Made by a program: the position numbers and the translations under genes
Shown here: positions 4,688-22,344 of the stretch, piece by piece
Layout: every line of letters begins with the position of its first letter
How positions within the stretch are numbered: the stretch's first letter is position 1
IMG/VR virus record: IMGVR_UViG_3300023082_000039
Span: 1-23,123 of that record
Strand: one strand, 5' to 3'
DNA from: a virus
DNA length: 23,123 nt
Notes under the pieces: generated by a model
Seen by the model: the letters and a program-made list of their open reading frames with translations, nothing else
Told to the model about the DNA's origin: nothing
Databases searched by the model: none

Positions 4688-5133
4688 TATAACTCCTTAA
4701 TGTAGCTGCACTCTGCAGGTCTATAACCATTTTTAGTATAAAATTTATGAAGATCTGTTGAATCATTTAGCATAGCCATTTGTACGATAGTTGCACCAAT
4801 CCTAACAGCCCAGTCTTCATAGGCTTTAAATAGGAGCAGAGAGTCCCTTGTACTACGATAACTCTCATCAACCCACCAAGCTAGCTCAGAGGCTACCTTA
4901 CGGGTAGAGAAGGGTGTAGGACTAGCGTGACCTAGGATCATGCCGTAGGGGCTCTCTGCGGCAGCGAGGATGATGATTAAATCAGTCTTGTCCCCCTGCA
5001 GGTATTTATCGAAGATTCCTCTGCAACTGACCTCACTGAAGTCAAGTACATTGTATGGGGAAGCCTCATAGAAGCTACGGGCCATACGGAAGACTTCTGG
5101 CCAGTCTTGTTCAGTTGCAAGTCTCAGGGTCAT
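4687..5133 (-). CDS. GNAT-fold protein in the T7 gp13 position (phage acetyltransferase family)
   Basis: 148 aa. The layout is that of a GNAT N-acetyltransferase: N-terminal RLATEQDWPEVFRMARSFYE, a central beta-strand region ending ELAWWVDESYRS, a helix (LLLFKAYEDWAVRIGA), then a strand and the C-terminal FYTKNGYRP that marks GNAT motif B. The acetyl-CoA pyrophosphate loop, normally Q/R-x-x-G-x-G/A, reads R93-S-T-R-D-S98 and lacks both small residues, so activity is doubtful. The gene sits between the tail-nozzle-like and gp14-like genes, exactly where T7 has gp13; gp13-type proteins in related phages are often annotated as acetyltransferases. It starts by ATGA overlap with the upstream gene and ends by TAATG overlap with the next. 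A minor virion or assembly role is as likely as catalysis. Confidence 0.75.
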   Translation of the reverse strand: MTLRLATEQDWPEVFRMARSFYEASPYNVLDFSEVSCRGIFDKYLQGDKTDLIIILAAAESPYGMILGHASPTPFSTRKVASELAWWVDESYRSTRDSLLLFKAYEDWAVRIGATIVQMAMLNDSTDLHKFYTKNGYRPAECSYIKEL

Positions 5134-7160
5134 GGCAGTCCATTAGCTGTTTCAAATCCGGACCAGCCTACAATAGAGAAAGGTTTACCAGATTCACCAA
5201 AGAATTTGAATTGAAGACTATAGCCAGTGCCACGCATCTTCAGTCGAGACCTTTGGTAGTTCCTGTAGACCCCGTGTCTGTACACTTGCTGAGGATTAGA
5301 GAACCTAGCAGACTGTTCATCGAAGGTATAATCCCAAAGACCCTGCACATAACAAGACCCATCAGCAACTTCCTCTGTCACAATAGACAAATAGTTAGTT
5401 TGGAAGTTCTTAAGAATATCCCCACGAATACGGTATCCAGTAATGAAAAACTGTTCGTAAGGAACTGTGCCCCAGTCAAGATAATTAGTCCCAATCATCT
5501 CAGCCCATGACATTGAAACCCCGTCAACAGCCAAGAACTTAAATACCTTGGGTCCATTGTTTCTTACAGCGACAACACCAGAGATTTGAATGGATGTATT
5601 TGGTATGCTCAGAGGATAGAAGGTTCCGGTAACAGCATCAAGAACAAGTATGTTAGTGTACTTGGAGACACCATCTTCTGGCATGATATTGTAGATCCAG
5701 TAAACAAGACCTAGCTGGTCATTAAAAACACCCTTAGCCGTAGTTTTAGAGTACTGTGGAATTGCATCATAGAAAGACTGGATACTCGTCTGAGTAAGAT
5801 TACTGACTTCTGATGTTAGACCAACTTCAGACTTCTTCAAAGCAAAGATACCTTCGTAGTTCCACCAAACAGGTAGCCCACCGATGTCAACAATACTAGT
5901 CTTTGACAGAGCAGGGAAACTTGAGATCTTAGAGACAGTATAATCAGTTGCCCTGAAAGATGCATTATCAGAACCAGAGATAGACCAGACACCATTAGTA
6001 GCAAACACGAACAAAGACTGTCCAATTACTCTCATATCAAGGACAGTGTTGATGTCTTGGATCTTAATTGTACCACCATCAGATGGCAACAGATCAAAAC
6101 TATCTTTAGCTGTAGGGTCATTCGCTTGGTAGCATTTACCTAGCTGACTATCATCTTCAATGATCTGTGTAAAGTAGATGGTGTTAGAATAGCCCGTAGA
6201 GCCTACACCAGCGTAGAAAGCTCGTCCAGCGAAGAATGATACCACAGAAGGCTGAAAGCCACCAGAGGTCGTCTCTGGGACACCTACGATGCCACTGAGT
6301 GCAGCCCTGTTAGTACTGAATGCATTTAGGATGTAGTGACCACGAGCAGCAGGAGTATTACCTAGATAACCATTCCTAGAGAGGTATGTGCCATCTGGAT
6401 CAAACTTATCTGCGCCGACGGTGTCACCCTCAGTATCAGTAAGGGTATAGAACCACCAGAAGTCTACGTTACTCGGGTAAAACCCCAGTTCGTTAAACCA
6501 GTACACCATCGCATTAGTTGGAGTAGTCGGAGTAAAGACTGTAGGGTACCAACCTTGATTAAAGAGGTTGTAATTGTGGACTACTGATAAGGTAACGGGA
6601 CGCTCATCAACCTGCAGACCATCATCCAGTGTCTCGAAATCTCGAATGGTAATGTCAATAGTATGAACTACCATTGCATTGGTCACAGAATCATATTCAA
6701 TATAAATAGTCTGGCAACAAGGGTGAGCAACAAAGAGGTAGCCCTTGCCCGAAGAGAAGCTACAAAGATTTGCTTTTACATCTGCGTTAGTGAAGGGTGT
6801 AATTTTATATGCCAGAAGATCAACAGATGAAACCAGCAGTGCAGAAGATAGTGATGTACCAGAATTAGCTTCAAAGAAACTGAGGGCATTACCAAATTGG
6901 ACTACTACAAAATCTTTAGAGTCATTCTCCGAGACTGTCTCCCAAAGAAACTCATTACGAACCCCATCAGAGGGGAGTGACTTGGGAACAGCATCAACTT
7001 CGTAGGAGAACGACTTTCGACTTAGAGCCTTGCCTCTGCGGTCATAGACAACATTCGAGGAACTAGTGACGCTGTTCTCTGGACTATTGACACCTGTTAC
7101 TTCGGTGATGAGTCCCTTCGAAAAGTTATTCTCTACAGTGACACTAGCAGCTCTTGGCAT
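5130..7160 (-). CDS. Tail nozzle / tail tubular protein B-like (T7 gp12 position)
   Basis: 676 aa. The N-terminus (NNFSKGLITEVTGVNSPEN, then SSNVVYDRRGKALSRKSF) is typical of podoviral tail-tube or stabilisation proteins, which open with a 'GLITE..G.N.PEN....NVVYDRRG' stretch. The rest is rich in aromatic residues, Ser, Thr and Gly with short beta strands, as expected of the beta-propeller nozzle of T7 gp12 (794 aa) and its shorter relatives. The C-terminus (SIVGWSGFETANGLP) is polar. It lies 3 bp after the 84-aa gene and has an AGAGGA Shine-Dalgarno. Its stop overlaps the GNAT start (ATGA). It would form the distal tube of the short tail, beneath the adaptor encoded two genes upstream. Family assignment is from the N-terminal pattern, size and position. 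Confidence 0.75.
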   Translation of the reverse strand: MPRAASVTVENNFSKGLITEVTGVNSPENSVTSSSNVVYDRRGKALSRKSFSYEVDAVPKSLPSDGVRNEFLWETVSENDSKDFVVVQFGNALSFFEANSGTSLSSALLVSSVDLLAYKITPFTNADVKANLCSFSSGKGYLFVAHPCCQTIYIEYDSVTNAMVVHTIDITIRDFETLDDGLQVDERPVTLSVVHNYNLFNQGWYPTVFTPTTPTNAMVYWFNELGFYPSNVDFWWFYTLTDTEGDTVGADKFDPDGTYLSRNGYLGNTPAARGHYILNAFSTNRAALSGIVGVPETTSGGFQPSVVSFFAGRAFYAGVGSTGYSNTIYFTQIIEDDSQLGKCYQANDPTAKDSFDLLPSDGGTIKIQDINTVLDMRVIGQSLFVFATNGVWSISGSDNASFRATDYTVSKISSFPALSKTSIVDIGGLPVWWNYEGIFALKKSEVGLTSEVSNLTQTSIQSFYDAIPQYSKTTAKGVFNDQLGLVYWIYNIMPEDGVSKYTNILVLDAVTGTFYPLSIPNTSIQISGVVAVRNNGPKVFKFLAVDGVSMSWAEMIGTNYLDWGTVPYEQFFITGYRIRGDILKNFQTNYLSIVTEEVADGSCYVQGLWDYTFDEQSARFSNPQQVYRHGVYRNYQRSRLKMRGTGYSLQFKFFGESGKPFSIVGWSGFETANGLP

Positions 7161-16608: not shown

Positions 16609-16636
16609 TTATGCGATACCGCCGAAGCGGCCTCCT
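16609..16636 (-). promoter_or_regulatory. Shine-Dalgarno bridged to ATG by a UUCG hairpin
   Basis: On the minus strand AGGAGG (16636-16631) is followed at once by CCGC-TTCG-GCGG (16630-16619), a stem with the very stable C(UUCG)G loop, then TATCGCATAA and ATG at 16608. The linear gap is 22 nt; folding the 12-nt hairpin out leaves 10. This resembles T4 gene 38, where a stem-loop brings a remote Shine-Dalgarno near the start. Coupling to terminase termination (TAAATG) is an alternative. Confidence 0.5.
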
Positions 16637-18159
16637 GTTCTTCCTTCCCATGCTTTAGGTCTTGACTGCATGAGGCTTGATGTTGGGGCTACAATAATAC
16701 CAAGAACAGACGCAAGGCAGTCCTTAACGTCATCATGTGCTGGATTCTGTAGAACGAGTTCTTCTTCGAGAATCTCACAGTTGCCGCCTTTGTAGTGCCA
16801 CATCTGATGATTCTCATACTTGGGGTTCAAGGAAGCGAACATACGTTCTTCTTTGGTACCCATATGTCTATTAGGTCTATGTTCCTCAACGGTAAGAGCA
16901 AGCCCCCACTGACGAATGTAGTTATCTTTGATCTCTTTAACAATGACCGATTGGAAGCCTGTGACTTCAGCTCTGATCTTTCTAAAGCCCCACCGTTGGT
17001 GCAGGGATAGAATCTTGTCGAAGTACTCTTTGATCTTGTCAGTCTTGAATCGTTCGATGTCTAGGATGTAGACGTTGTTATAGGCGTCAACTCCGACAAC
17101 AACAATGGATGAGAAGTCAGCTTTACCTCTGACGGACGCCGCGAAGTCAACTGCAGCGAATACGTTAAGTCTACGGGTGTTATAAGAGACGGACCCGTTG
17201 CTGTGAGATACAAGCCCCCGGTTATAGTATTGAAATAGTTCCCGTGAAATCGGGGCTGATTCGGCGTCATTAGGATCGTTATAGTATTGGGCTCTGAACT
17301 GTGTACGGTCAAGGTATTTAGCTTTCTTCTGTGCAAGGATGCGTTGATCAAAACCAAACCATTTGCCATCAGGTCTTTGTTGACGTGGCCAGATGTATTC
17401 GCCCGAACCGTCTCCTACGTCTTCTACCTGACGTTCGAAGACTTCGTAAACAGCAGACTCTGCGAGAACTTCGCCATGAGGATCGTACTCTTCCATGTTC
17501 ATTTCGAGCATGTCGTTGTAAAGATCTTGGGGATGGTAACGAGTACCAACGACCCATTCAAAGGAGTCTGCACTTTCGATAGATGCCAACAGCGAATACT
17601 GCTGACGGACCTTCTCACGACCTTCTTCTGTGTAGGCATTCTCCTTGACAACGACGTCATCGAGTACAGCGATATCACAGTGCATACCAGTAAGACCAGT
17701 AGTCAGACCGCCAATGAAGATAGTGGGGTCACGAATAGCCTCAGCCTTGCGGAGAGGATGGTCAATAGAGATTTCAGAGTTAGTCCACTTCTCACGCTTA
17801 CCTTCCTCAGGATGAACCATCTCTGGCCAATACCTTTGGTAGATCTTGGAAGTGAGGATGTCTTTGATGAACTTGAGTTGCTTCTCAGCCAAGTTTGCAG
17901 TAGAAGAGATATAGAGGACACGTACTGCGGGGTTACGAGTGATCTCCCAAGCTACCCGGTAGGCGACCATAGCTGACTTGCCGTGGTCACGGGGCAACAG
18001 GGTCAACTGATGATGCTTGGCGTCTTGGCGGCACCACCAGTCAATGAGATCAAGATGGACACCACCTAGGACTCGTTGAGGATGAACAAGGTTGATGAAG
18101 GTAACAAGGGATTGCTCAGCAGCTTCCCGAATCATTTGGTGCTTACTGATGACAGTCAA
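16609..18159 (-). CDS. Large terminase subunit (DNA packaging ATPase/nuclease)
   Basis: 516 aa from a TTG start at 18159. This start lies 1 nt after the stop of the preceding gene and has AGGA about 10 nt upstream. An upstream in-frame TTG at 18210 (533 aa) has no Shine-Dalgarno and would overlap the previous gene by 50 bp. Using the 516-aa numbering: Walker A LPRDHGKS (55-62), Walker B DIAVLDDVV (162-170), coupling motif VGTRYH (204-209), and the RNase H-like nuclease with AVDFA (Asp338), AEVTG (Glu398) and HDDVKDCLA (475-483). These are the features of T7 gp19-type terminases, which translocate DNA into the prohead through the portal and cut concatemers. Together with the small subunit gene it opens the late cluster. 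Confidence 0.92.
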   Translation of the reverse strand: MTVISKHQMIREAAEQSLVTFINLVHPQRVLGGVHLDLIDWWCRQDAKHHQLTLLPRDHGKSAMVAYRVAWEITRNPAVRVLYISSTANLAEKQLKFIKDILTSKIYQRYWPEMVHPEEGKREKWTNSEISIDHPLRKAEAIRDPTIFIGGLTTGLTGMHCDIAVLDDVVVKENAYTEEGREKVRQQYSLLASIESADSFEWVVGTRYHPQDLYNDMLEMNMEEYDPHGEVLAESAVYEVFERQVEDVGDGSGEYIWPRQQRPDGKWFGFDQRILAQKKAKYLDRTQFRAQYYNDPNDAESAPISRELFQYYNRGLVSHSNGSVSYNTRRLNVFAAVDFAASVRGKADFSSIVVVGVDAYNNVYILDIERFKTDKIKEYFDKILSLHQRWGFRKIRAEVTGFQSVIVKEIKDNYIRQWGLALTVEEHRPNRHMGTKEERMFASLNPKYENHQMWHYKGGNCEILEEELVLQNPAHDDVKDCLASVLGIIVAPTSSLMQSRPKAWEGRTGGRFGGIA

Positions 18160-18160
18160 T

Positions 18161-18646
18161 TTATTTCCATCCTGATGCAGTGTATGTGATTGTTCGAGTA
18201 GACCCACCAAGGAGTGTGCCGACGAGTCCTCCTACAAGTCCCGAGACTGACAGAGAGAAGATACCAAGACCTGAGGGAGCCTGAATAGTGAATGTGCAAC
18301 CGGGCCAGACATTGGTGGTAGTGGGCGTAACCGTCATATTGCCCAGTAGAGTCGATTGGAGTGCAATGATGGGGGCAGACACCAGAGGTACCAGAGACAT
18401 CGCTCCAGAGGTCTGTGTGGAGGCTACAGCATAGTCTGTACGCTGAGGGCGCCAGTAGTAGGTGTTTCCATCATAGGAGCATCGCATGACCTCTTGCACA
18501 GAACCCCATAGATCAGATACCACTGCATACCAACCAACATAGGTTTGACTTGCAGAAAAGGAACTGAGCAGGGTGGCAACAGGTAACGGATCACCATTGT
18601 TCACATAGCGGATCGAAGAGAGCGAAGGGGTTGCATATGCGAACAA
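18161..18646 (-). CDS. Beta-rich protein of unknown function between terminase genes
   Basis: 161 aa from a TTG start with a strong GGGAGGT Shine-Dalgarno 4 nt away; no ATG or GTG start fits better. N-terminal part has the 'D.YY..RP.. TDY' type of aromatic strand-rich sequence (VMRCSYDGNTYYWRPQRTDY). The C-terminal half is Ser/Thr/Gly/Val-rich beta sequence (LSVSGLVGGLVGTLLGGSTR). No signal peptide. The stop nearly touches the TTG start of the large terminase. Perhaps a minor virion protein; I do not recognise the family. Confidence 0.65.
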   Translation of the reverse strand: MFAYATPSLSSIRYVNNGDPLPVATLLSSFSASQTYVGWYAVVSDLWGSVQEVMRCSYDGNTYYWRPQRTDYAVASTQTSGAMSLVPLVSAPIIALQSTLLGNMTVTPTTTNVWPGCTFTIQAPSGLGIFSLSVSGLVGGLVGTLLGGSTRTITYTASGWK

Positions 18647-18955: not shown

Positions 18956-19503
18956 TAGTTGGGCTTCCCCATAATTCGTTCAAAGTCTACATCAGAGTCT
19001 GTGTTATCTCGAAACATTCGCTCAGCCTCCAGAAGAATCTTCTCCTTGGTTGGGCGGCCCACCCGACTTGCTGCGCTCGTCTTTGATTCAGGTCGTTTCC
19101 ACCCGCCTGACAGAAGAATCTTATCTGCAGCAAATGAATCCTTCTCATCAGAAGATGCTCTGACTTTGATCCGGTGCAATGCGGTAGCTCTGAGTTTGAC
19201 TTCGAGTTCCTCTCGCCATGCAGGAAGATACTCTTGGAAGAATGATGCTTCGGATAGTTTCTTCCAGTGTACCCATGAATCTAGGTAGGTTGTTGCAAAC
19301 TCATATTCGGTAGGATCACCCATCTCGACATACAGACGACGGAGACTTGGGTAGACGATACCATTGTGGAATGTGTGGTCATAGTCCTTGAGGGTGTACT
19401 GAGCGTAACGAAGGTCAGTGTCATCCAGCTCTAGGAACATGGGCTTCACGATATGGGCACCGGAAGCATTCTTAAACTTAAGTCGGTTAGGTACAAATGC
19501 CAT
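18955..19503 (-). CDS. Putative small terminase subunit, first gene of the late cluster
   Basis: 182 aa with a GGAGAT Shine-Dalgarno. Helical and charged; the middle (EASFFQEYLPAWREELEVKL then RATALHRIKVRASS) and the later segment SRVGRPTKEKILLEAERMFR have the look of a small DNA-binding recognition subunit, with 'GRPTKEKI..EA' as a common basic motif in podoviral small terminases. No enzyme motif. It is two genes upstream of the large terminase and is the first gene downstream of the minus-strand promoter candidate. Assignment rests on position, size and the basic helix; not on a firm family match. Confidence 0.65.
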   Translation of the reverse strand: MAFVPNRLKFKNASGAHIVKPMFLELDDTDLRYAQYTLKDYDHTFHNGIVYPSLRRLYVEMGDPTEYEFATTYLDSWVHWKKLSEASFFQEYLPAWREELEVKLRATALHRIKVRASSDEKDSFAADKILLSGGWKRPESKTSAASRVGRPTKEKILLEAERMFRDNTDSDVDFERIMGKPN

Positions 19504-19592
19504 TGGGATCTCCGGGCTTTACATACGTATACATACTGTATTACTATAGTAATTCTCTTGATACACTAGTTGCACTAGATAAACCAAAAGTA

Positions 19593-19624
19593 AACTTTTA
19601 GATACTTAAGTAATACTAAAAGTT
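19593..19624. repeat. Nested inverted repeat in the late leader
   Basis: AACTTTTAG (19593-19601) and CTAAAAGTT (19616-19624) are perfect 9-bp inverted arms. The 14-nt spacer itself contains the perfect 10-bp palindrome TACTTAAGTA (19603-19612). It lies between the promoter candidate and the first late gene, so it would be transcribed in the 5' leader. Confidence 0.7.
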
Positions 19625-19683
19625 AAACTATTGTATAGAGAAAACTTAAAGAAAAGCTTATAGTAAAACTTATCGTTTACTCT

Positions 19684-19719
19684 ATAACTATGTCTAACAT
19701 ATTTTTGAACAAAAGTCAA
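19684..19719 (-). promoter_or_regulatory. Candidate sigma70-type promoter for the late cluster
   Basis: On the minus strand TTGACT (19719-19714) is followed after 17 nt by TAGACA (19696-19691), preceded by TG one base upstream, an extended -10 pattern (TGTTAGACA). The -35 matches 5 of 6 consensus bases; the -10 is weak (3 of 6) but helped by the TG. Transcription would start near 19684, giving a leader of about 180 nt before the small terminase gene. No other minus-strand pair in the region looked better. Confidence 0.4.
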
Positions 19720-19790
19720 CCCCCTTAGACAAACTATTTTACATGGGTACTGAAATTGTTACATAATTTTTTCGAGAAAGTTTCAGGGTG

Positions 19791-19799
19791 TGATACAAT
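19791..19799 (+). promoter_or_regulatory. Candidate extended -10 promoter element, rightward
   Basis: TGATACAAT reads as an extended -10 (TG-N-TACAAT). The -35 at the usual 17-nt distance is TTCGAG (19771-19776), a weak match. The same TGTGATACAA string occurs again at 20387-20396. Placed just before the C/G-rich block. Confidence 0.3.
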
Positions 19800-19802
19800 C
19801 TA

Positions 19803-19835
19803 CCCCTACCCCGGGGGTCACCCCCTGCTACCCCC
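19803..19835 (-). other. Potential G-quadruplex tract
   Basis: Four C-runs on the plus strand (19803-19806, 19809-19812, 19821-19825, 19831-19835) give G4, G4, G5 and G5 runs on the minus strand with spacers of 2, 8 and 5 nt. This satisfies the usual intramolecular quadruplex rule with tracts of at least four. A GGGGG run (19813-19817) inside one spacer could pair with a C-run and compete as a hairpin. Confidence 0.55.
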
Positions 19836-19848
19836 TTCGATTATGTAC

Positions 19849-19864
19849 CAATTGCATGCAATTG
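19849..19864. repeat. 16-bp perfect palindrome CAATTGCATGCAATTG
   Basis: Exact self-complementary 16-mer in the control region, 14 bp from the C-rich block. Length and symmetry fit an operator for a dimeric regulator. Two related palindromic families (TTGGTATACCAA and TTGGCAT-containing) occur nearby. Confidence 0.6.
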
Positions 19865-19893
19865 AAAAACCCTTGGCATGGCGGGGCAATACT

Positions 19894-19907
19894 ATTGGTA
19901 TACCAAT
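19894..19907. repeat. Palindrome ATTGGTATACCAAT, copy 1 of 2
   Basis: Perfect 14-bp palindrome. The core TGGTATACCA recurs at 20126-20135 within CTATTGGTATACCA (12 bases of shared left context), about 230 bp away. Recurrence makes a regulator-binding site more likely than chance. Confidence 0.6.
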
Positions 19908-20122
19908 GTAATACATACTGTAGTACGAGAAGATAGTTATAGATCATCACTGTTATGTTGAGGTATCATAGTACCATAGGTACATTAGATGCAACTGTAA
20001 TTCGTGTCACTCAACATGTAAGGCAGATGAACACATGCACTCGACACGTAATACATTAGTATCATTACAGAATATAACTATTACCCTGCAACTCCAATGC
20101 CATTGGCATGCTACTGTAATGC

Positions 20123-20137
20123 TATTGGTATACCACT
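20123..20137. repeat. Palindrome TGGTATACCA, copy 2 of 2
   Basis: CTATTGGTATACCA is shared with copy 1; the outer right arm is degenerate (CT instead of AAT). It lies 14 bp after ATGCCA-T-TGGCAT (20097-20109), another inverted repeat. Confidence 0.55.
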
Positions 20138-20518
20138 GATACACAACAAATCATGTCCTATCACATCCCCTCATAGAAGGTCACTGAGAGACGCCACAAG
20201 TCCCGTGGTGCATCCTTCATTCTTCTTCTGTCACTCATTCTAGGGGCTTCCTTGTGTCAACCAGAGGCATGTGACATTAATACAACAGAGAATAATCTTC
20301 TACTGTGACCTATTGTTATGAGATGAGATTCCTCAATTGCACCTAGTCAAGACATATCATTCCAACTCAATCACTCTTTGTTACACTGTGATACAACATG
20401 TGATCTTGACCTATTGACATTGATTGTTGTTTGTGCAATGCGCGTGCGCTTTCTGTCCCTATGGTGGGGCCGATGGTCCTATCATTCTTCCCGAGATGGT
20501 GCCGAGACGATCACGGAT

Positions 20519-20527
20519 TGTTACAAT
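20519..20527 (+). promoter_or_regulatory. Candidate extended -10 element upstream of the structured RNA
   Basis: TGTTACAAT matches the extended -10 pattern TG-N-TACAAT. No -35 match lies 17 nt upstream. Transcription would begin near 20534, about 50 nt before the first stem of the proposed non-coding RNA, which makes this the best-placed candidate for driving it. Sequence evidence alone is weak. Confidence 0.28.
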
Positions 20528-20584
20528 ATTGAAACATTATGTTACTTCACTTATCCAATTCGATGTGAGATAAAGAGATTGTAA

Positions 20585-21165
20585 GCAGATGAGGGCCGGT
20601 TGAACCTCTTAAATCCTCCTCCGATTAGCCACTAGGGTAACCTAGTCTAGCCTCTTGATCGAGGACATTGGCAGAACTAATAGGCAACTGGATATGGTGC
20701 CTAGTGTGAGACAAAAGGATGTCGCTACTCAAACCGCAAGGTTAGAGAAAGCCCCTTAGGTGGAAAGCTAAGACTTAGGCGATGTAACATTGTTACATGA
20801 GTTCCTATTCAAGGTGGACGCTGTGTTGAAGCTAGGTTATGGTGCAAATCATCATCATTGAAGGGACTTGAGTGAATGGTCAATCGACTGTGAGAAACTC
20901 AGGTGAGGACGAGTGGAAACTATTCGTAGCGCATGACAAAGCGTGAGGGGTAGTGGTGGCTTAATCAAAGTCATCCTCGTTCAATATCTGGCCACTATCC
21001 CCGCGTAGGATACTTAAAAGTATTCACGTGTTGCCTCTGAAACAGAGGGCATAGGGGATAAACATAACGGACAAAAGACACTATCGTATTGATCTGTGGA
21101 TAGCTTGTGCAATCGGGTGCCGAGTACTAGCTTGAAGCGTTCTTTGTAGTGTGTAACAAAACCGT
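20585..21165 (+). ncRNA. Candidate large structured non-coding RNA, unknown family
   Basis: About 580 nt with no protein frame but an unbroken series of stem-loops readable by eye. Stems: ACTAGG-GTAA-CCTAGT (20631-20646, GNRA loop); CCTC/GAGG (20651-20664); TAGGCA/TGCCTA (20681-20703); TGAG-ACA/TGT-CTCA (20707-20732); AACC-GCAA-GGTT (20732-20743, GNRA loop); ATGTAAC-ATT-GTTACAT (20782-20798); CCTATTCAA with TTGAA-gc-TAGG (20804-20836); CGAGTGG-AAA-CTATTCG (20910-20926); GGGGTAGTGG with CCACTA-t-CCCC (20947-21002); CGCGT-a-GGATACT-TAAA-AGTATTC-ACGTG (21002-21030); TGCCTCTG-AAA-CAGAG-g-GCA (21032-21051). A long-range stem ACGG...ACACTA with TAGTGT...CCGT (21067-21165) closes the last domain. 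Size and phage setting recall the giant GOLLD and ROOL RNAs, but I cannot match their consensus. Strand and ends are inferred; the plus strand is favoured by G.U pairs in the stems and by the rightward operon downstream. Confidence 0.6.
20736..20752 (+). repeat. GC(A/G)AGGTTAG(A/T)GAAAGC repeat, copy inside the structured RNA
   Basis: GCAAGGTTAGAGAAAGC; 15 of 17 bases match the copy at 21256-21272. The first bases form the GNRA loop and 3' arm of a hairpin. Confidence 0.6.
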
Positions 21166-21189
21166 ATTTAAAATAACAATTGTAATTCT

Positions 21190-21221
21190 ATGGAGGGCAG
21201 TGGCACTTAATTGCCCTCTAT
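21190..21221 (+). promoter_or_regulatory. 10-bp hairpin in the leader of the rightward operon
   Basis: ATGGAGGGCA (21190-21199) pairs with TGCCCTCTAT (21212-21221), ten pairs including one G.U, with a 12-nt loop. No U-run follows, so it is not a standard terminator. It lies between the structured RNA and the first gene and could be a processing or stability element, or an attenuator with partner sequences in the repeats downstream. Confidence 0.6.
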
Positions 21222-21255
21222 ATTGGTGCAATTGGCACTGTGAAAGCTATACCTT

Positions 21256-21272
21256 GCGAGGTTAGTGAAAGC
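21256..21272 (+). repeat. GC(A/G)AGGTTAG(A/T)GAAAGC repeat, copy in the operon leader
   Basis: GCGAGGTTAGTGAAAGC, directly upstream of the AGGAG Shine-Dalgarno (21274-21278) of the 166-aa gene. It also overlaps a tandem GTGAAAGCTA (21240-21249 and 21265-21274). Confidence 0.6.
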
Positions 21273-21287
21273 TAGGAGTTTCCTATC

Positions 21288-21788
21288 ATGACTACTCTGG
21301 TAATTGCAAATACAACGGCACTTCCTTCCGTCAAGCAGATCAATGCCCATTCCGTTCGTTTGGGTACGGCATCGATCAAGCTGCAACAGCATATCCATGA
21401 ACATGCTTTGGTTATCGCTCAGCATATCGCTGCCCATGGGGACGTGACAATCGCTGACACTCTGGTCAATGCACTCGGGAAGTCGATCCGCAAGAACCCA
21501 TTGCGTGACTGGTTCCTGATGTACGGTGGCTGCCAGTGGAATGCCGACAAGAAAGCCTTCCGCAAGGCAAAGGACTTCACGTTCGAATTGGAAGTGGCAA
21601 CAGCCAATCCTTTCTGGGAACTGGCACCTGAAGCCGAATACAAGCCGATGGATATCCTCAAGGAAATCGAGAAATTGGTACACAAGGCCCGCAAGCATCT
21701 GGCTGAAACTGACGCCGAAAAGCTGGCAGCCGACAAGATCAACACGGCAGTGCTGGCTCAGCTTGAAGCCTTGGTCCCGGCCAAGTGA
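21288..21788 (+). CDS. First gene of the rightward operon, unknown function
   Basis: 166 aa with an AGGAG Shine-Dalgarno 9 nt before ATG. Composition is soluble and helical: MTTLVIANTTALPSVKQINA, then a His-rich helix (IKLQQHIHEHALVIAQHIAA), a conserved-looking middle (KSIRKNPLRDWFLMYGGCQW then NADKKAFRKAK), and a charged C-terminal coiled coil ending LVPAK. No membrane segment. It overlaps the next gene by GTGA, so the two are probably coupled. The 110 nt upstream hold a 10-bp hairpin and repeated GTGAAAGCTA. As first gene downstream of the divergent control region it is probably an early, host-takeover protein. I do not recognise a family. Confidence 0.82.
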   Translation: MTTLVIANTTALPSVKQINAHSVRLGTASIKLQQHIHEHALVIAQHIAAHGDVTIADTLVNALGKSIRKNPLRDWFLMYGGCQWNADKKAFRKAKDFTFELEVATANPFWELAPEAEYKPMDILKEIEKLVHKARKHLAETDAEKLAADKINTAVLAQLEALVPAK

Positions 21789-21961
21789 AGTACGTCTATA
21801 AGGATTTCACAGGACTGTACTATGCTGGCTCTGGTATTGGTTGGGCTGGTCATGGTGGCTCAACTTGGACCAAGGATATCACTAAGGCTAAACACCTGAC
21901 ATTGGTGGAGGCTGAACGTATGAAGTCCTATATTACAGGCGAAGCTATCGAAGTAAGATAA
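21785..21961 (+). CDS. 58-aa protein, GTG start, unknown function
   Basis: Frame starts GTG at 21785 and overlaps the stop of the 166-aa gene as GTGA; the same type of coupled junction occurs throughout the late cluster. Protein begins MKYVYKDFTGLYYAGSGIGW and ends ITGEAIEVR. The pattern (Tyr- and Gly-rich strand pair, then a helix KAKHLTLVEAERMKSY) suggests a small folded domain. There is no alternative ATG near the start. Short but supported by the overlap and by protein-like composition. Function unknown. Confidence 0.6.
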   Translation: MKYVYKDFTGLYYAGSGIGWAGHGGSTWTKDITKAKHLTLVEAERMKSYITGEAIEVR

Positions 21962-21965
21962 CGAG

Positions 21966-22012
21966 TATAATACGCAGAGACCGTAGGTCTATTCCTATCA
22001 TCTTTGCGTATT
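21966..22012 (+). promoter_or_regulatory. Nested inverted repeat with a perfect TATAAT, before the tRNA-like element
   Basis: AATACGCA (21969-21976) and TGCGTATT (22005-22012) are perfect 8-bp inverted arms. Between them AGACC-GTA-GGTCT (21978-21990) forms a second stem. TATAAT (21966-21971) overlaps the left arm and would be a perfect -10, but no -35 match lies 16-18 nt upstream. It could be a promoter/operator or an RNA element leading into the tRNA-like structure. Confidence 0.5.
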
Positions 22013-22027
22013 GTGAACGTTATGCAT

Positions 22028-22106
22028 GAGTACAGGTGCCTAGGATGCTGCGCAGCAAGGTAAGGCTCTGTCTATTGATAGTCGGTTCGATCCCGACCCT
22101 GTACTC
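22028..22106 (+). ncRNA. tRNA-like element lacking an anticodon arm
   Basis: GAGTACAGG (22028-22036) pairs perfectly with CCTGTACTC (22098-22106). Taking the inner 7 bp as acceptor stem, the element is 76 nt to the discriminator (22030-22105). The T-arm is canonical: GTCGG (22081-22085), loop TTCGATC (matches TTCRANY), CCGAC (22093-22097), directly stacked on the acceptor. The D-like region GCCT/AGGC (22038-22041 with 22063-22066) encloses a perfect palindrome TGCTGCGCAGCA. I tried all 5-7-5 frames in the remaining bases and found no anticodon stem. No CCA is encoded. Either a decayed phage tRNA or a tRNA mimic. Confidence 0.5.
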
Positions 22107-22170
22107 TAACATACTGTTGTATGGGCTTATGGACAATGGTGTCTATTGGCAAAGCAGAAGGAATATAGTC

Positions 22171-22344
22171 ATGGAAAAGTTTAGCCTCGCAATCGTTCGT
22201 CCCGTCGCTGGTCACAAGGGTGAACTGATCTACACAATGGATCGCTATGCTGATTCGATCAGTGCTGCCGTCAAGGCCACACGTCTTGAAGTCGAAGGGT
22301 CCGGCTGGATCGTCCTTCAAAAAGATGCATTTGTGAAAGGCTGA
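22171..22344 (+). CDS. 57-aa protein of unknown function
   Basis: ATG at 22171 with AGAAGGA about 8 nt upstream. The frame stays open upstream as far as a GTG at 22036, but that would run through the tRNA-like element and has no good Shine-Dalgarno, so 22171 is preferred. Protein: MEKFSLAIVRPVAGHKGELI and on to WIVLQKDAFVKG; a compact mixed beta/alpha pattern. No membrane segment. Lies between the tRNA-like element and the 116-aa gene (9-bp gap). Not recognised. Confidence 0.65.
   Translation: MEKFSLAIVRPVAGHKGELIYTMDRYADSISAAVKATRLEVEGSGWIVLQKDAFVKG

Follow-up and report, generated by a model that had tools for sequence, protein, structure and literature searches.

The window analyzed in this study comprises 23,123 bases and is the entire length of an IMG/VR-type virus record, itself a fragment, in which leftward and rightward operons diverge from a common junction. 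The leftward genes include those for TerL (16609-18210), a 614-aa head-tail adaptor and the major capsid protein, and TerL has 57-65% identity to its counterparts in the cobaviruses and phages closely related to them, which are Zobellviridae podoviruses infecting marine bacteria. As judged from these sequences, the window represents a Zobellviridae-like podovirus, and the structured stretch considered here lies on the early side of its divergent junction. The first gene of the leftward late operon, starting at 19503, is small, belongs to phrog_8035 and by its position is probably the small terminase gene, and the rightward early operon begins at 21288 with the gene for a phrog_1448 protein; a listing of open reading frames (ORFs) revealed no convincing gene in the 1.8 kb between the two. 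The equivalent junction of Lentibacter phage ICBM1 holds a direct terminal repeat, that is, the genome ends, with the first early gene 0.9 kb from the left end, and that of Vibrio phage ICP2 measures 1.75 kb and has three annotated sigma-70 promoters. Based on the layout of these two junctions, the right-hand, early side of the window junction is where the first transcript would be expected to start.

The first early gene (21288-21788, + strand) was assigned to the phrog_1448 family, of unknown function, by its match to PHROG 1448 (E 8e-35), and the protein has no match among Pfam models. Relatives of this gene were identified in 471 phage records, many of them near the left genome end, and it is commonly found near the left end of autographivirid genomes, preceded by ~0.5-1.2 kb in which few genes or none are annotated. 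Phrog_1448 scans of viral contigs and genome contigs added few relatives, and a scan with another early gene added none. The second early gene (21785-21961, + strand) encodes 58 aa and has a GTG start that overlaps the stop of the phrog_1448 gene. Farther downstream (22028-22106, + strand) is the tRNA-like element noted in the original prediction, which is present as a fold (z -2.3) with a 9-pair acceptor-like stem (GAGTACAGG/CCTGTACTC), a canonical T-arm (GTCGG-TTCGATC-CCGAC) and aberrant D and anticodon arms. It was not called as a tRNA by ARAGORN, which found no tRNA anywhere in the window, and its best Rfam match was tRNA-Sec at 16.4 bits, compared to a cut-off of 47; it may be a processing element of the early operon.

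The stretch originally singled out (20585-21165, ~580 nt) had been described as lacking an open frame, and this description holds up to the early gene, as there is no ORF of at least 60 aa in 20585-21287 and the longest + strand frame there is 38 aa. Its placement at the head of the rightward operon was also correct. To assess its folding, the energy of the + strand was compared with that of dinucleotide-shuffled copies, the check that the original prediction had called for, and the result bore out an excess of stability: at -181.9 kcal/mol the + strand had a z of -2.32, with 3 of 100 shuffles as good, while the - strand had a z of -0.38. The signal was stronger for the extended element at 20565-21287 (z -3.6 with none of 20 shuffles as good, and z -3.95 with none of 60), and it was present at a z of -2.7 (none of 40 shuffles) when the long stem described below was left out (20565-21120). 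In a scan of the junction by 200-nt segments, the strongest on the + strand were 20901-21100 (z -3.7; -1.5 on the - strand) and 21101-21300 (z -3.0), and nothing comparable was detected in 19501-20500, where the lowest z was -1.5, on the - strand. The number of stems was a different matter. The original prediction held an uninterrupted row of stems like this one to be rare in random sequence, but the 22 confident helices that were observed compare with 18.8 ± 3.7 in shuffled copies, 14 of 60 of which had as many; because shuffles yield nearly the same number, stem count was rejected as evidence for a structured RNA.

The upstream part of the junction (19504-20560, assigned to neither strand) was delimited from the ORFs and the ICBM1 annotation and is likewise gene-free, with no comparable strand-specific fold signal. 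On its late side, at 19894-20137, are two TTGGTATACCAA palindromes within a 59-nt unit that is repeated 230 nt apart, and in the window as a whole there are five matches to the palindrome, compared to 0.2 expected. The palindromes at 19894-20137 are possibly regulator sites or a genome-end signal.

In the predicted fold of the + strand, a domain of many helices comes first and a long stem second. The 5' domain (20585-21120; z -2.3 to -2.7) has ~20 predicted helices, as judged from pair probabilities, including a long-range helix that joins 20594-20605 to 20979-20993. Both GNRA tetraloops of the original prediction were recovered at the bases named: a GUAA hairpin at 20631-20646 (loop GTAA, 20637-20640; mean pair probability 0.97) and a GCAA hairpin at 20728-20747 (loop GCAA, 20736-20739; mean pair probability 0.98). 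Within the strongly folding segment 20901-21100 there is also a compact three-helix domain at 20996-21060 (20996-21002/21054-21060, 21003-21014/21019-21029 and 21032-21039/21043-21051), with mean pair probabilities of 0.83-0.97. The strongest element is the long imperfect stem at 21127-21275 (z -3.62, none of 200 shuffles as good), which has ~47 pairs in five stacked segments and an apical 13-bp helix (21189-21201/21210-21222), and which ends 12 bases upstream of the ATG at 21288. A Shine-Dalgarno-like sequence in the AAGCTAGGAG region (21269-21277, + strand) overlaps its end; the 5' part of this sequence closes the stem, the base of which touches the AGGAG. We propose this stem as a candidate RNase III-type processing and translation-control stem. 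The right boundary first drawn at 21165 cuts through it, and the long-range closing stem that had been predicted there (21067-21083 with 21147-21165) is absent from both the minimum free energy and centroid folds, in which 21142-21155 pairs with 21248-21261.

Searches for relatives of the window leader, another check that had been suggested, were negative throughout: no significant nucleotide relative was identified by blastn in phage and plasmid records, none by nhmmer and blastn across 83 loci of TerL and phrog_1448 relatives, none in the records behind 26 of these loci, and none by a search for an exact 24-base motif. The record with the nearest TerL relative (L004, 97%) breaks inside TerL, and the leader region is absent from it. 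Since no homologue was detectable, the helices of the window have no covariation support of their own, which we counted against their interpretation as an early leader. One syntenic locus, L016, has a 1.9 kb junction and a stretch that folds strongly (rc 5061-5560, z -4.2), and in both L016 and the window a CUAGG-GNRA-CCUAG hairpin (CUAGG-GCGA-CCUAG in L016, similar to the GUAA hairpin of the window) is followed by the 18-base motif UGCCnAGUGnGAGACAAA. Elsewhere in viral contigs the motif was detected only in unrelated, apparently coding contexts. Because the formal tests of the two leaders were at chance level (local alignment score z 1.5, structure-profile alignment z 0.6), homology between them is not claimed, and no conservation of sequence or structure was found between the window leader and any other leader compared. 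The gene-free junction of another relative (L109, reverse complement, ~6088-6687) had a + strand z of -4.7.

Most of the related leaders have a strong stem in the corresponding position; what recurs among them is position and not sequence. For this survey a 180-nt segment abutting the first early gene was folded from each of 19 leaders of ~16 lineages of related phages, with sequence inside the coding region downstream of the start as the control; the first early gene was another small gene in IME271, LIMEzero, NMeng1, ICP2 and ICBM1, and the end of the L016 leader was set by eye. The mean z was -2.81 for the sense strand, -1.47 for the antisense strand and -0.42 for the coding control, and 74% of the leaders were below -2, with the window at -3.4. 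Three further loci gave -1.0 (L178), -2.25 (L181, which appears to have upstream frames) and -0.5 (L182). The weak values for L178, L182, LIMEzero (-0.6) and ICP2 (-1.4) were counted against the early-leader interpretation and imply that a strong stem before the early gene is common, not universal. No description of such leaders was found in the open-access literature.

Two groups of these leaders were aligned for the analysis of covariation. The first, a leader of ~650 nt before the phrog_1448 gene of Rhizobium phages, was represented by RHph_Y48 (L146:1-667), TM34, Y1_20 (L156 and L157 being among the set) and an IMG/VR record (L002:5240-5880); 32 of its 169 pairs had compensatory double changes, compared to 12.3 in column shuffles (none of 500 had as many) and 3-6 in slid registers, and 95.9% of cells pair. 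The second, of ~450 nt, was represented by six friunaviruses and Acibel007 (in phiAB1, L148:1120-1573); 23 of its 101 pairs had compensatory double changes, compared to 6.3 in column shuffles (0 of 500) and 2-6 in slid registers, and seven of these pairs are in a ~21-pair stem before gene 1. Each structure was derived from the alignment on which it was then tested, and the kinship of the phages inflates the column-shuffle control, but the slid-register control argues against such effects accounting for all of the covariation. The covarying pairs include G-U pairs, as expected of RNA. DNA of the friunavirus leader region matches 158 records, nearly all of Acinetobacter phages, and some members have an inserted hairpin. 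As read from these alignments, the data indicate that structured leader RNAs are under selection at this position in those other phages, a result that does not extend to the particular helices of the window. In view of the strand-specific stability of the window leader and the covarying leaders at the corresponding place in other podoviruses, the rightward operon is likely to begin with a structured RNA; this much of the original proposal of a large structured RNA stands, while its helix count is ordinary.

Our preferred explanation, which we hold to be probable if well short of certain, is that ~20565-21287 is the non-coding, folded 5' leader of an early transcript and ends in an RNase III-type processing and translation-control stem. 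The predicted layout has a multi-helix domain first and then the long imperfect stem at 21127-21275, whose end falls on the Shine-Dalgarno sequence of the first early gene. By analogy with T7, we infer transcription, RNase III cleavage and a translational effect in the window as follows: upon infection the leader would most likely be transcribed first, by the host RNA polymerase; host RNase III would cut the long stem during RNA synthesis; and the cut would free the leader, give the early mRNA its 5' end and make the ribosome site of the first early gene accessible. In support of the early-leader interpretation we counted the stability of the extended element and of the long stem beside the Shine-Dalgarno sequence and ATG, the weak signal of the - strand, the survey of 19 leaders, the covariation in the Rhizobium and friunavirus leaders, the R0.3 site of T3 and T7, the syntenic divergent junction and early first gene in the window, ICBM1, ICP2 and L016, and the finding that the T7 A1 leader also folds better than its shuffles (z -3.8). 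Counted against it was that no consensus sigma-70 promoter was identified on the + strand in 19800-20585, and also that a long stem near the Shine-Dalgarno sequence could work in the absence of RNase III. The T7 model is the simplest that fits all of the observations.

The multi-helix 5' part exceeds the requirements of a cleavage site and could thus have some additional role, an idea that we regard as rather unlikely. One form that this role could take is that of an ornate non-coding RNA in its own right, which would be set free from the early transcript and act in trans as a folded particle or binder of a host factor, as proposed for GOLLD and ROOL RNAs. The Rhizobium (~650 nt) and friunavirus (~450 nt) leaders are multi-domain and covary well beyond the 3' stem, again exceeding the needs of a cleavage site, and the 5' domain of the window is more stable than its shuffles; against this, the signal of that domain is modest, its helix count is ordinary, it shares no conservation with the other leaders and it has no match to GOLLD, ROOL or any other Rfam family. 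We consider a trans-acting RNA unlikely, if worth keeping in view. We are more doubtful still of the broader proposal that several podovirus families carry an undescribed class of large (400-700 nt), fast-diverging folded leader RNAs at the head of the early operon, usually before phrog_1448, with one member in the window; RNase III would release these RNAs, and they would then act on the host in trans during the early phase of infection.

Two further alternatives appear improbable. Phage HK022 has put RNAs, short hairpins close to where its early transcripts start, and the window leader, with which a long early operon opens, might be a similar antitermination RNA that acts in cis on host RNA polymerase during elongation and lets transcription of the operon pass terminators; put elements, however, are ~70 nt long compared to ~700 nt for the leader, and comparison of the leaders revealed no conserved hairpin motif. 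That the junction is instead a DNA-level signal (a genome terminus, packaging or replication-origin region) with incidental RNA stability would suit the direct terminal repeats of ICBM1 and the repeats with TTGGTATACCAA palindromes, but is hard to reconcile with stability that is strand-specific and peaks beside the start codon, with palindromes that are outside the structured part, and with the RNA-like G-U pairs among the covarying positions of other leaders.

If the leader is indeed that of an early transcript, as we favor, a feature left blank by annotators in many podoviruses would be a conserved structured RNA element that controls whichever gene is expressed first upon infection. Both the Rhizobium leader and that of the friunaviruses combine strong covariation support with the lack of an Rfam match, and since both are from cultured phages their function is directly testable.

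Among known RNAs, GOLLD and ROOL, which the original prediction named in suggesting a new family or a divergent member, resemble the window leader in being large folded phage RNAs of unknown function. They often occur near tRNA islands (PMC12286853), whereas the window leader opens an early operon, lies immediately ahead of a gene and has no tRNA island. Scans with cmscan (the whole window at the gathering score, and 20100-22200 at E ≤ 5 with permissive filters) identified no match to GOLLD, ROOL, group I or II introns or other Rfam classes, the permissive scan returning only chance snoRNA matches far below threshold. As there was neither a covariance-model match nor a tRNA called by ARAGORN, membership in these families is not supported and the element was classed as a structured early leader, not as a new ornate RNA family.

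The R0.3 site of T7 acts in RNase III processing. The leaders of T7 and T3 resemble that of the window in that they are non-coding, occupy the left end of the early operon of a podovirus and have a stem immediately ahead of its first gene, and two features of an R0.3-type leader were found in the window, namely a gene-free leader at the early-operon head and, immediately upstream of the first early gene, a long imperfect stem (21127-21275). In T3 and T7, R0.3 lies between promoter A3 and gene 0.3 (PMC3276506). The T7 leader has three host promoters inside 430 nt, whereas that of the window is longer and gene-free with no recognisable promoter; the first genes also differ (0.3 versus phrog_1448), and cleavage in the window is putative. 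The friunavirus leader (Acinetobacter phage phiAB1 type) is shorter (~450 nt) and AT-rich, has a clear sigma-70-like promoter in front (TTGACA...TAAGAT) and no sequence similarity to the window, but similarly precedes a phrog_1448-family gene and ends in a ~21-bp stem before gene 1. The Rhizobium phage leader (RHph_Y48, TM34, Y1_20 and L002) differs from that of the window in its strong covariation, and no sequence similarity was detected between the two; neither has an Rfam entry, and they are alike in position, in a length of ~650 nt or similar, in the phrog_1448 gene downstream and in the long stem before its start codon.
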